Source of the DNA: Streptomyces sp. NBC_01210
GTDB taxonomy: Bacteria > Actinomycetota > Actinomycetes > Streptomycetales > Streptomycetaceae
Direction: 5' to 3'
DNA: 64,000 nucleotides
Assembly: GCF_036010325.1 (NCBI RefSeq)
Contig: NZ_CP108549.1
Location: forward strand, 4,526,001-4,590,000
A program made the position numbers and the translations under genes. Below, in pieces: positions 15,635 to 25,908 of the stretch; positions within the stretch are counted from its first letter, which is position 1, and every line of letters begins with the position of its first letter. The notes beneath the pieces were generated by a model. That model ran no database searches. It saw only the letters and a program-made list of their open reading frames with translations, and had not been told where the DNA came from.

Positions 15635-17191
15635 GTGAAGGCAACCCATCGCAGAGCCGTGGCCACCATGGCCGCAGCCGCACTCGCGACCCCGCTCCTG
15701 CTGGCATCCGCATCTCCCTCCGCAGCCCGCCAGAACCCCGGCGAGCAGGCGGCAAAGGACGCGTCGAAGCTCGCAAGGAAACTGGTCGAGAAGTCGTCCG
15801 CCAAGGACGCGTTCCAGCACCTGAAGAAGTTCCAGCAGATAGCCGACACGACCGACGGCAACCGCGCCGCAGGCACGCTCGGGCACGACGCCTCCGCCGC
15901 GTACGTCTACCAGCAGCTGAAGAAGTACGGCTACGACGTCTCGTACCAGCAGTTCGACTTCATCTACACCGAGACGCAGGCCGAGAAGCTCTCCGTGCTC
16001 ACGCCCGCGCCGCGCGCCGTCGAGATCAAGGCGATGACGTACACCAAGTCCACTCCGGTGGGTGGCGTCAGGGCCGATCTGGCCGCCGTGGCGGTGGACG
16101 CGACCACCGGCTGCGAGCCGGCCGACTACGCCTCCGGGACCTTCACCGGAAAGATCGCGCTGATCAAGCGCGGCGGCTGCACCTTCGGCGAGAAGCAGGC
16201 TGCCGCGGCGGGTGCCGGCGCGGTCGGCGCGGTCATCTACAACAACGCCGACGGCGCGCTGTCGGGCACCCTCGGCGACCCGGCCACCGGCAAGATCCCG
16301 ACCGGCGGAATCACCCGGGCCGAGGGCGAGCAGCTCGCCGCCGACGTCGCCAAGGGCCCGGTGAACATCTCCTTCGAGATCCGCCAGCTCCAGCAGAAGC
16401 GCTCCACCAACAACGTCATCGCGGAGACCCGCGGCGGCAACGCCGCGAACACCGTGATGCTCGGCGCGCACCTCGACTCGGTCACCGCGGGCCCCGGCAT
16501 CAACGACAACGGCTCCGGCTCGGCCGGACTCCTCGAAGTCGCCCAGGAACTCGCCAAGTCCAAGGCGAGGCCGACCAACAAGGTCCGCTTCGCCTGGTGG
16601 TCGGCGGAGGAGAACGGCCTGCTCGGCTCGGAGGCGTACGTCGCCCAGCTGAGCTCGCTGGGCAAGAAGGAGATCAAGCTCTACCTGAACTTCGACATGA
16701 TCGCCTCGCCGAACTACGGGCTCTTCGTCTACGACGGCGACGACTCCGACGGCGTGGGCGCGGGCCCCGGCCCGGCCGGCTCGGCGCAACTCGAGCGTGA
16801 CATCAACGAGTTCCTCGACAAGCGGGGCAGGCCGCACGAGGGCACGGACTTCACGGGCCGCTCGGACTACGGCCCGTTCATCGAGGCCGGCATCCCGTCC
16901 GGCGGTACGTTCACGGGCGCCGAGGGCATCAAGACGGCGGCCCAGGCGAAGAAGTACGGCGGCACGGCCGGGGTGGCGTACGACTCCTGCTACCACGCCA
17001 AGTGCGACAACATCAGCAACATCGACATGAAGGCGTTCGCCGTCAACATCGGCGTCATCGCCAACGCGGTGGGCACATACGCCCACGACCTGAGCTCGCT
17101 GCGCAAGCCGGTCGTCACGGTCCCGACGGGCGGCGAAGCGGGCAGCGGTGGCGGCCTGCACGACGGACACGACCACGATGTGACCGAGTAG
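15635..17191 (+). CDS. Secreted M28 aminopeptidase with PA domain
   Basis: 518 residues from GTG 15635 (AAGGA seven bases upstream). A signal peptide occupies about 1-32 (LATPLLLASASPSAARQ), so the enzyme is exported. A protease-associated domain spans about 140-240. The catalytic domain has the two-zinc ligands of family M28: H279 (GAHLDS), D291 (INDNGSG), E326 with the general base E325 (WWSAEENG), D354 (NFDMIAS) and the His near 453 in DSCYHAKCDN. These match the Streptomyces griseus aminopeptidase pattern. The enzyme should remove N-terminal residues from peptides outside the cell. The tail is His/Gly rich (GGGLHDGHDHDVTE), possibly binding metal. A composite inverted repeat follows the gene. 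Confidence 0.95.
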   Translation: MKATHRRAVATMAAAALATPLLLASASPSAARQNPGEQAAKDASKLARKLVEKSSAKDAFQHLKKFQQIADTTDGNRAAGTLGHDASAAYVYQQLKKYGYDVSYQQFDFIYTETQAEKLSVLTPAPRAVEIKAMTYTKSTPVGGVRADLAAVAVDATTGCEPADYASGTFTGKIALIKRGGCTFGEKQAAAAGAGAVGAVIYNNADGALSGTLGDPATGKIPTGGITRAEGEQLAADVAKGPVNISFEIRQLQQKRSTNNVIAETRGGNAANTVMLGAHLDSVTAGPGINDNGSGSAGLLEVAQELAKSKARPTNKVRFAWWSAEENGLLGSEAYVAQLSSLGKKEIKLYLNFDMIASPNYGLFVYDGDDSDGVGAGPGPAGSAQLERDINEFLDKRGRPHEGTDFTGRSDYGPFIEAGIPSGGTFTGAEGIKTAAQAKKYGGTAGVAYDSCYHAKCDNISNIDMKAFAVNIGVIANAVGTYAHDLSSLRKPVVTVPTGGEAGSGGGLHDGHDHDVTE

Positions 17192-17390: not shown

Positions 17391-19082
17391 CTAGCGTCGC
17401 CTGCGGGCCGTACCGAAGATCGAGCGGGAGATCTCCCGGCCCAGCTGCGTACCGACCGAGCGCGCCAGCGACTTGAAGATGCCGCTGCCCATAACCTGCC
17501 CCACCACAGACTCGTCCTGCGCCCGCGCCCGCGGGGACTTCGCCGTCCCCGCCGCCTCCTTGGCATGCTCGGCCTCCTTGGCATGCTCGGCCTCCACCGC
17601 CGCCCGCACCGCCGCCGCCTCCGCCTCCTGCTGTTCGGCCGTCAGCTTCTCGTACGCCGACTCCCGGTCGACCGCCTCCGCATAGCGCGAGTACAGCTGC
17701 GAGGACTTCACCGCCTCGTCCAGGGCCGCCGCGTCGATCGGGCCCATCAGCGACTGCGGGGCGCGCAGACGGGTCATCGCGACCGGCGTCGGGGCGCCCT
17801 TGTCGCTGAGCACGGTGATCACCGTCTCGCCCGTGCCGAGCCCCGTCAGCACCTCCTCCAGGTCGTACGGCGATTTCGGGAAGGTCTTCACCGTCGCCTT
17901 CAGCGCCTTGGCGTCGTCCGGAGTGAAGGCGCGCAGCGCGTGCTGCACCCGATTGCCGAGCTGCGCCAGCACATCCCCCGGAACATCCTTCGGCGTCTGC
18001 GTGACAAAGAAGACGCCGACTCCTTTCGAGCGAATCAGCCGCACCGTCTGCGTAATCGACTCCAGGAACGCCTTCGACGCCCCGTTGAAGAGCAGATGCG
18101 CCTCGTCGAAGACGAACACCAGCTTCGGCTTCTCGACATCCCCGACCTCGGGAAGGTCGTGGAAGAGGTCCGCGAGCAGCCACATCAGAAATGTCGAGAA
18201 CAGCTGCGGCTTGTCCTGCACGGCGGGCAGTTCCAGTACGGAGACGAGCCCGCGCCCGTCCGGAGCCGTACGCAGCAGCTCACTCGTGTCGAACTCGGGC
18301 TCGCCGAAGAAGCCGCCCGCGCCCTGTTACTCGAAGGCGGTGAGCGCACGCAGGATCACCCCGGCGGTGGCCGTGGAGAGTCCGCCGATGTTCTTGAGCT
18401 CCGCCTTCCCGGTGTCCGACACCAGAAAGGCGACCACGGCCCGCAGATCCTTGAGATCCACCAGCTCCAGACCCTTGGAGTCGGCGTAGTGGAAGATCAG
18501 CCCGAGCGACTGCTCCTGCGTCCGGTTGAGCTGGAGCACTTTGGAGAGCAGTACGGGTCCGAAGCTGGTGACCGTCGCGCGCAGCGGAACGCCGGGGCCG
18601 ATGCCGCCGAGGCCGTAGAACTCGCAGGGGAATCCCTTGGCCTCCCACGCCTGCCCGACCTGCCCGGCTCGCTCCTGGACCTTCGCGCCCGACTCGCCCG
18701 GGGCGGAGATGCCGGAGACATCACCCTTGATGTCGGCGAGGAACACGGGCACGCCGTTCGCGGAGAGCTGCTCGGCGATCAGCTGGAGTGTCTTGGTCTT
18801 TCCGGTGCCGGTGGCGCCGGCGACCAGACCGTGCCGGTTGAGCATGGACAGCGGGATACGGATCTGGGCATCGGGTCGGCACTGGCCGTCCCAGAGCAGT
18901 GCGCCGAGGTCCAGTGCGGCGCCGCTGAGGGCGTATCCGGCGGCGATCTCCTGCGCGGGCGGCGGCAGCACGGACCCGGCGGCCGACGCGCCCGCCGGGG
19001 CGGACACAGCCCCATCAGCCCCGGACACACCCGTGGCTGTTTCCGTTTCCGGCGCGTTCAGCGGCTGTTGGCCGGCGCTCAT
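17391..19082 (-). pseudogene. HerA-like (DUF853) ATPase interrupted by an in-frame TAA
   Basis: The frame from ATG 19082 to 17391 would encode 563 residues but has one TAA at 18327-18329 (codon 252). The first part has Walker A GATGTGKT (89-96) and FLADIKGDVSG, and ends ATAGVILRALTAFE. After the stop the same frame continues QGAGGFFGEPEFDTSELLRT and then KPQLFSTFLMWLLADLFHDL, LVFVFDEAHLLF (Walker B) and VFFVTQTPKDVPGDVLAQLG. Relatives normally read FEQQG at the break, so a CAA-to-TAA change explains it. Both halves keep good codon use. Possible readings are a recent pseudogene, readthrough, two polypeptides that complement (a start near 18221 is possible), or a sequencing error. HerA-like ATPases translocate DNA; the family role in Streptomyces is not settled. 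Confidence 0.85.
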
Positions 19083-19177
19083 GGCGACCCCCTATTCCCG
19101 ATATGAGGCACTTTGACCAGCATTACACTGGCGCTGCCTGGCTGCGCCGACCGCCGCTTGCCCGGTAGGCTTTCCGT

Positions 19178-19474
19178 GTGATCTTCAAGCGCATCGGTAA
19201 CGGGCGGCCGTATCCCGACCATGGCCGGGAAAGCACCCGGCAGTGGGCGGATGTCGCGCCGCGCCCGGTCCGCCTCGATCAGCTCGTGACCACCAAGGGC
19301 CAGCTGGACCTGGAAACGCTGCTCGCCGAGGACTCCACGTTCTACGGCGACCTCTTCGCGCATGTCGTGAAGTGGCAGGGCGACCTCTATCTGGAGGACG
19401 GCCTGCACCGCGCCGTGCGCGCCGCGCTGCAGCAGCGCCAGGTACTGCACGCCCGCGTGCTCGAGCTGGGCTGA
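19178..19474 (+). CDS. Conserved small protein, VapB-antitoxin-like label
   Basis: 98 residues from GTG 19178 (MIFKRIGNGRPYPDHGRESTRQW). The C-terminal half (FYGDLFAHVVKWQGDLYLED, then GLHRAVRAALQQRQVLHARV) is highly conserved in Streptomyces and is sometimes annotated as a VapB-type antitoxin. I see no ribbon-helix-helix motif and no VapC-type PIN gene beside it, so that label is doubtful. It is divergent from the HerA-like gene and 118 bases before the LytR_C gene. A housekeeping role in actinomycetes seems more likely than a toxin-antitoxin role. Confidence 0.75.
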   Translation: MIFKRIGNGRPYPDHGRESTRQWADVAPRPVRLDQLVTTKGQLDLETLLAEDSTFYGDLFAHVVKWQGDLYLEDGLHRAVRAALQQRQVLHARVLELG

Positions 19475-23969: not shown

Positions 23970-24818
23970 GTGACCGTGTCGGCCAGTACTGCGCCTCAGG
24001 TGCCGCCCCAGAACGAGCGGCCCGACGACACCCCGGCCCCCGGAAAACCCCAGAGCCGGGGCGCGGACACCCGGGCCCTGACCCAGGTGCTCTTCGGCCA
24101 GCTCAAAGAGCTGAAGCCGGGCACTACGGAACACTCCCGGGTACGTGGGGCGCTGATCGAGGCGAATCTGCCGCTTGTGCGCTACGCCGCGGCGCGGTTC
24201 CGCTCCCGCAACGAGCCGATGGAGGACGTCGTCCAGGTCGGCACGATCGGGCTCATCAACGCCATCGACCGCTTCGACCCGGACCGCGGTGTGCAGTTCC
24301 CGACGTTCGCGATGCCCACCGTGGTCGGCGAGATCAAGCGGTACTTCCGCGACAACGTACGGACCGTCCATGTGCCCCGGCGGCTGCACGAGCTGTGGGT
24401 ACAGGTCAACGGCGCCACCGAGGATCTGACGACGGCTCATGGGCGCACCCCGACGACGGCCGAGATCGCCGAGCGGCTGAAGATCGGCGAGGACGAGGTG
24501 CTGGCCTGCATCGAGGCCGGGCGCTCGTACCATGCGACCTCCCTCGAGGCGGCCCAGGAGGGCGACGGGCTGCCGGGGCTGCTCGACCGGCTCGGTTACG
24601 AGGACCCGGCGCTGGCCGGCGTCGAACACCGCGACCTGGTTCGCCATCTGCTCGTACAACTGCCCGAGCGGGAACAGCGGATCCTCATGCTCCGCTACTA
24701 CAACAATCTGACGCAGTCACAGATCAGCCAGGAGCTGGGCGTTTCGCAGATGCATGTGTCAAGGCTGCTTGCCCGAAGCTTTGCCCGACTCAGATCCGCA
24801 AACAGGATCGAGGCATAG
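23970..24818 (+). CDS. sigF: SigB/SigF-family RNA polymerase sigma factor
   Basis: 282 residues, GTG start at 23970 with AAAGGGG upstream. Region 2 is [20 protein letters not shown] followed by [13 protein letters not shown] (core binding and -10 recognition). Region 3 has [15 protein letters not shown]. Region 4 is [20 protein letters not shown], then [20 protein letters not shown] (-35 recognition). The N-terminal Pro-rich tail and the position immediately before a second, similar factor match the SigF/SigN pair of Streptomyces, where SigF acts in spore maturation. Such factors are usually held by anti-sigma factors; none is encoded next to it here. Two hairpins follow. Which member is F and which N rests on memory of the N-termini. 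Confidence 0.88.
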
Positions 24819-24820
24819 CT

Positions 24821-24860
24821 GAAACGGGTAGACCGTTTCAGGGGCAGCTTCGGGCTGCCC
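24821..24860 (+). terminator. Two hairpins after sigF
   Basis: GAAACGG / CCGTTTC (24821-24839) followed at once by GGGCAGC / GCTGCCC (24842-24860) with loop TTCGG. They probably separate sigF transcription from sigN. Confidence 0.75.
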
Positions 24861-24902
24861 AAATGCCGCACACCCTCTGCTTCCTGCACAAATTCACCCG
24901 AT

Positions 24903-24940
24903 ACATGTCGACATGTCACTACAGCGTGTTGCCGACATGT
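24903..24940. promoter_or_regulatory. Three ACATGT motifs upstream of sigN
   Basis: The palindromic hexamer ACATGT occurs at 24903, 24911 and 24935, the first two joined as ACATGTCGACATGTC, between the sigF terminator and the sigN start. This density suggests an operator; the binding protein is unknown. Confidence 0.45.
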
Positions 24941-25053
24941 GACATTCTGCGGGAACCGCGTTTGCCGCAGCCCCGCCTCCGGTATTCAGGTGGAGGCTGC
25001 GTTCCTCCGATGGTCGTGGCCGCCGCGACCGTCCGCGACCTCAAGGGGGTGGC

Positions 25054-25908
25054 ATGTCCGTAGAACAGGGCAGCTCGAAGGTGCTCACGCTCACGAAGAG
25101 CGCACCCGCACCTGTCGTGCCTGACAGCTCGGAAGCCATCGACACGCGCACTCTGTCCCGCTCCCTGTTCCTGCGGCTGCGCGCGCTGGACTCCGAGGGA
25201 ACGGGCGACACCCCGGAGCGCACCTATGTGCGCGACACCCTCATCGAGCTCAATCTGCCCCTCGTGCGGTACGCCGCGGCGCGGTTCCGCTCCCGCAACG
25301 AGCCGATGGAGGACATCGTCCAGGTCGGCACGATCGGTCTGATCAAGGCGATCGACCGGTTCGACTGCGAACGGGGCGTGGAATTCCCGACGTTCGCGAT
25401 GCCGACGGTCGTCGGCGAGATCAAGCGCTTCTTCCGCGACACCTCGTGGTCGGTGCGGGTGCCGCGCCGGCTCCAGGAGCTGCGGCTCGCGCTCACCAAG
25501 GCCAGCGACGAGCTGGCCCAGAAGCTCGACCGCTCCCCGACCGTTCCCGAACTCGCAGCAGTGCTCGGGGTGTCGGAGGAGGACGTGGTCGACGGTCTCG
25601 CCGTCGGCAACGCCTACACCGCCTCCTCCCTGGACTCGCCCTCGCCCGAGGACGACGGCGGCGAGGGCTCGCTCGCCGACCGGCTGGGGTACGAGGACAC
25701 GGCGCTGGAGGGCGTCGAGTACCGCGAGTCCCTCAAGCCCCTGCTCGCCAAACTCCCGCCCCGCGAGCGGCAGATCATCATGCTGCGGTTCTTCGCCAAT
25801 ATGACCCAGTCGCAGATCGGCGAGGAGGTCGGCATCTCGCAGATGCATGTCTCGCGGCTGCTGACCCGTACGCTCGCGCAGCTGCGGGAGGGCCTGATCG
25901 CCGACTGA
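25054..25908 (+). CDS. sigN: SigB/SigF-family RNA polymerase sigma factor (SigN-like)
   Basis: 284 residues from ATG 25054 with AAGGGGGTGG upstream. Region 2: [20 protein letters not shown], then LIKAIDRFDCERGVEFPTFA. Region 4: LPPRERQIIMLRFFANMTQS and [20 protein letters not shown]. It is closely similar to the upstream factor, most in regions 2 and 4, and different in the N-terminus (SVEQGSSKVLTLTKSAPAP) and the linker before region 4. The pair probably arose by duplication. In Streptomyces the second gene of such a pair is sigN, implicated in development. It is separated from sigF by terminator hairpins and an ACATGT cluster, so it has its own promoter. Confidence 0.86.
   Translation: MSVEQGSSKVLTLTKSAPAPVVPDSSEAIDTRTLSRSLFLRLRALDSEGTGDTPERTYVRDTLIELNLPLVRYAAARFRSRNEPMEDIVQVGTIGLIKAIDRFDCERGVEFPTFAMPTVVGEIKRFFRDTSWSVRVPRRLQELRLALTKASDELAQKLDRSPTVPELAAVLGVSEEDVVDGLAVGNAYTASSLDSPSPEDDGGEGSLADRLGYEDTALEGVEYRESLKPLLAKLPPRERQIIMLRFFANMTQSQIGEEVGISQMHVSRLLTRTLAQLREGLIAD

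Follow-up and report, generated by a model that had tools for sequence, protein, structure and literature searches.

An in-frame stop codon in a YjgR-type HerA-like ATPase gene of Streptomyces: a probable recent pseudogene at a site of repeated gene loss

The interrupted gene and its family

The window, a stretch of 64,000 nucleotides (G000:C1:4526001-4590000), comes from Streptomyces sp. NBC_01210, whose genome comprises 9,208,508 bases (9.2 Mb) in two contigs. On its minus strand, the frame 17391-19082 translates into 563 codons ahead of the terminal stop and contains one internal TAA, at codon 252, beyond which the frame stays open to the end of the gene (Table 1). The claim of the initial annotation that a single in-frame TAA splits an otherwise whole gene is borne out by this translation and by a two-part match to PF05872, in which the N- and C-terminal halves match profile positions 8-188 and 191-502 of 502 with 220 and 393 bits (cut-off 22); the nearest intact protein matches positions 8-500 in one piece with 632 bits. 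Because the halves cover adjoining parts of the profile, they represent one domain cut in two, between the motifs that we take to be Walker A and Walker B. No uninterrupted chain in the window copy carries both motifs, whereas the nearest intact protein has one. The presumed inactivation hangs on this one codon, with no second lesion yet. Both halves are coding-like, as had also been claimed, the GC content by codon position being 0.71/0.51/0.88 in the N-terminal and 0.70/0.46/0.90 in the C-terminal half. The 12-base word around the TAA occurs once in the window, and a protein search of the genome itself (E <= 0.001) returned one match, the gene in question, which is thus present in a single copy.

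Table 1. Features of the interrupted gene and of the genes that delimit its site (window coordinates; Walker names as presumed)
Feature	Position	Strand	Basis
Convergent M28 peptidase gene, bounding the site on its far side	15635..17191	+	Pfam
C-terminal half with Walker B, past the TAA and through the gene's own stop	17391..18326	-	PF05872 191-502
Walker B strand, residues 322-327	18102..18119	-	sequence comparison
GTG, codon 288, earliest in-frame ATG/GTG/TTG past the TAA	18219..18221	-	sequence
In-frame TAA, codon 252	18327..18329	-	translation; no stop in relatives aligned there
N-terminal half (251 codons), Walker A included	18330..19082	-	PF05872 8-188, PF01935 12-68
Walker A GATGTGKT, residues 89-96	18795..18818	-	sequence; columns invariant
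AGGGGG, Shine-Dalgarno-like, 5 nt ahead of the ATG	19088..19093	-	by eye
VapB-like gene (PF23719), divergent neighbour, site anchor	19178..19474	+	Pfam; 294/295 genus genomes

The label HerA-like that had been given to the gene is correct for the superfamily, and a sharper assignment is to the YjgR/PF05872 type. Judged by profile scores, the gene belongs to PF05872 (HerA_C, YjgR type) and lies outside the NurA-partnered HerA equivalogs, for which the nearest intact protein reaches 39.7 and 25.5 bits against NCBIfam cut-offs of 800 and 970, the halves likewise falling far below them. PF05872 is listed under its former name DUF853 in PMC3388012, and one paper describes YjgR as a P-loop protein, so far uncharacterised, with strong stabilisation by ATP (PMC12819154). 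Among solved chains the closest is PDB 11kk ('HerA like helicase YjgR'), to which the nearest intact protein aligns from residue 70 to 486 with E 1.2e-120. This chain, presumably Escherichia coli YjgR, keeps EQQGA..FFGEP where the window has its stop. In comparison with YjgR and PF05872, the window copy is cut at codon 252, and Streptomyces proteins, unlike YjgR, carry a variable stretch ahead of the domain. The 11kk entry contains six chains, which suggests that members of the family may assemble as hexamers. An AlphaFold2 model of the nearest intact protein is too poor to use (mean pLDDT 55); residue 252 falls within a helix (237-255) that has better confidence than the rest of the model.

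HerA proteins of the HerA-NurA pair and of anti-phage systems have the P-loop core in common with this gene (4d2i (HERA), E 7.8e-8), and there are matches to PADLOC mad8 (1.1e-17) and, with 2e-14 at best, to seven HerA profiles. A Pfam scan of seven adjoining frames at this locus identified HhH-GPD, M28, VapB-like, LytR_C, UPRTase (uracil phosphoribosyltransferase) and deaminase genes, with one frame lacking a match; a HerA-type nuclease, SIR2 or DUF4297 partner, which we take to be the known partners of HerA systems, is absent among these seven, and the only nuclease-related neighbour is the HhH-GPD gene, of base-excision glycosylase type. A phage origin was rejected: four phage records match, with 70-72% identity across 7-28% of the query. 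Elsewhere in the window, at 23970-25908 (+), lie two genes in tandem that are presumably sigma-factor-like.

Codon 252 and the age of the lesion

In 111 de-duplicated near full-length relatives, codon 252 encodes Gln in 65, Ala in 44 and Gly and Thr in one each, with a stop in none. All 115 alignments spanning the codon, which include the window and represent some species twice, give 67 Gln, 45 Ala, 1 Gly, 1 Thr and 1 stop, that of the window; both counts leave out broken copies whose alignment misses the place. The initial annotation had relatives reading FEQQG here, which is right as to Gln for about three fifths of them; with Ala in about two fifths, FEQQG is not universal. The premature stop is lacking in all intact orthologues compared (0/111), and the proposition that orthologues might end at the same place fails accordingly. 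Streptomyces sp. NPDC060064 has the nearest protein, an intact one with 96-97% identity, and a protein named as from S. venezuelae is also among the relatives. Three genomes, G161, G173 and G098, each with a stop flagged in the genus search, were considered as possible carriers of a common lesion and rejected, their stops being terminal or 5' of the start.

Several relatives show other irregularities. In L033 (3958-3961; G039), the gene is whole except for a single frame break near residue 243, at a distance of nine codons from the stop in the window. Apparent in-frame internal deletions, of about residues 210-335 or 275-426, occur in L040, L039, P0128, P0130 and P0220; these would leave one open frame from which part of the core is gone. 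Shorter N-terminal proteins on record, for example P0133, P0136 and P0147, are taken as other broken copies. A copy titled Microtetraspora glauca (L098) is 78% identical to the window's protein and is perhaps mislabelled or transferred.

Divergence is constrained on both sides of the stop. Against seven near relatives, the N-terminal half of the window copy has dN of about 0.07-0.10, dS of about 0.42-0.61 and dN/dS of about 0.13-0.20, and the C-terminal half has values of about 0.06-0.08, 0.39-0.52 and 0.12-0.16, respectively. Five control pairs of intact genes give dN/dS of about 0.06-0.20 (N half) and 0.11-0.22 (C half); the window values fall within this range, which suggests that decay has hardly begun. 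Of the changes that arose after divergence from the nearest protein, seven are assigned to the window side and seven to the other, with two undecided. Among 253 columns conserved in at least 98% of 110 relatives, the window departs at two, residues 324 and 420, both invariant across all 110; residue 324, on the presumed Walker B strand, is Val in the window and Phe in 110/110 relatives. As 21 of the 110 relatives likewise depart at two or more of these columns, the two departures would not by themselves indicate relaxed selection, and faster protein change as a mark of long decay was rejected on the 7 versus 7 changes and on deviations within the relatives' spread. Constrained divergence in both halves and the lack of excess changes together argue that the stop is recent. 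The option of a very recent change, one of several left by the initial annotation, is therefore supported by codon composition, the equal number of changes, constraint and the intact nearest protein.

The site across Streptomyces

A search of 295 genomes of the genus, the window's included, found a match at E <= 0.001 in 165. Among the matches listed, one piece of at least 457 residues is present in 108 genomes (window included), only fragments with best E values of 1e-10 to 1e-200 in 19, and weaker matches or none in 168; one of the 168, G230, has small remains, and G282, one of the 108, carries a frame break close to the C end. Loci were retrieved for 20 places with stops or pieces and for 40 of the 168 genomes. 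Two of the 20 places proved intact (L031 and L032) and 18 broken, the latter comprising 17 of the 19 fragment genomes and G282, and all 18 broken copies have their pieces at this same site.

In the 40 retrieved genomes lacking the gene, the M28 gene was found on the far side of the site in 20, and in 17 of the 40 its match ends no more than 405 bp from the VapB-like gene, a distance of 1,987 bp in the window; such a site was counted as empty only where M28 was found, since no M28 gene was found in the retrieved stretch of the other 20. Small remains of the gene lie at the same site in three of the 40 (L198, L208 and L214). The M28 peptidase gene itself (window 15635-17191) seems variable too, as it was not found in half of these stretches.

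A tree of 138 rows was built by a quick method from three neighbouring genes (1,545 columns). Its rows are not random, consisting of the 80 best named loci, the 20 retrieved places and 40 of the 168 genomes, from which L098, L117 and L124 were dropped for missing marker genes. On this tree, the intact or non-intact state requires 30 changes, versus 44.7 for shuffled labels, and at least 19 are required by well-supported (starred) branches. For the 19 broken rows, 18 changes are required, versus 18.1 for shuffled labels, so that broken rows are as scattered as shuffled ones; here the starred branches call for 14 or more. Counts of changes are by themselves blind to gain versus loss; the changes are read as losses because remains lie at the same site. 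L187, the row closest to the window with 92% across the 1,545 columns, has lost the gene.

Interpretation of the interruption

The most probable explanation, to which we assign a rough probability of 0.86, is that a nonsense mutation has recently made a pseudogene of this YjgR/PF05872-type HerA-like ATPase gene, which is dispensable and has been lost separately many times. Translation probably begins at the ATG, as suggested by the Shine-Dalgarno-like stretch and by a start common to the nearest protein, and would halt after 251 residues, producing a chain with Walker A that lacks Walker B and the remaining core. Such a chain should not form a working ATPase. The gene appears to be dispensable in the genus, with one fixed site at which it has been broken or deleted repeatedly in separate lineages, and in this reading the window captures one of these losses shortly after its onset. 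Bacterial nonsense pseudogenes likewise show one premature stop, constraint until recently and a single copy; the present case is the same in kind as ordinary ones and stands out only for how often the gene was lost in parallel at a single site.

A base-calling or assembly error concealing an intact gene would agree with a lone lesion flanked by constraint, and the GCWGC-type palindromic context of the codon in relatives might suit a methylation-linked miscall. However, two of the three bases of the TAA differ from those of the codon most frequent in relatives, and gene loss is in any case frequent at this site. As a control, 262 frames of a relative were compared with 460 kb around the window, of which 176 aligned at >= 55% identity. 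These gave a list of 21 stop positions, of which only codon 252 combines at least 90% identity with coding-type composition on both sides; another, located in a frame of 134 residues, reaches 82% and 95% identity with an upstream composition unlike coding, and the remaining listed positions have 68% identity or less on at least one side. A strand-symmetric methylation miscall was rejected, as GTAAC, the word it would produce, occurs without clear excess (counted on both strands, 130 in 460 kb here versus 101 in 400 kb from G015). With two codon bases differing and no second clean mid-gene stop in 176 aligned adjoining frames, sequencing error, another of the annotated options, is unlikely.

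The two remaining options would keep the protein functional and find no support. Programmed or leaky read-through, which would yield some full-length ATPase, is compatible with the constraint of both halves over the branch as a whole, but constraint predating the mutation accounts for the same data. The aligned relatives have no stop at codon 252, and hence no conserved recoding site, and TAA is an ordinary stop here, ending 16 of 153 long coding frames nearby; suppressor tRNAs were sought among the window's four tRNA genes only. Read-through is accordingly very improbable. Scarcely credible is the proposal that the C half is restarted at the GTG (18221) and that two chains assemble as a split ATPase. 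The frame past the TAA is indeed open to the end, yet this first restart codon lies 36 codons beyond the stop, has no clear ribosome site (GGAAC only, by eye) and would omit residues 252-287. In 111 relatives, codon 288 specifies valine 109 times and reads GTG 53 times; it is an old valine codon and hence nothing new. The P loop and Walker B would also fall on different chains.

Literature searches found no paper on a HerA-like pseudogene in Streptomyces; judged by title, matches for pseudogenes combined with recurrent gene loss in Streptomyces included none on the subject, those for HerA gene loss in Streptomyces none on this gene, and those for stop codon readthrough in Streptomyces none on this gene among the matches listed. 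Several matches for 'YjgR' are plainly chance word matches, again by title.

The stop itself makes an ordinary pseudogene; what may be useful is the range of states that a single site takes (intact, one lesion, fragments, empty). Across the genus, this series points to the dispensability in Streptomyces of a widespread ATPase of unknown function, and the many separate contrasts of presence and absence may help to find its role. A more speculative extension, doubtful on present grounds, is that the pseudogene in the window and its counterparts arise frequently because carriage is at times harmful, like that of defence or conflict genes kept under attack and discarded in peace, the window copy having been caught in the act. 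If so, the intact, broken and empty sites would provide a ready natural experiment on YjgR function.
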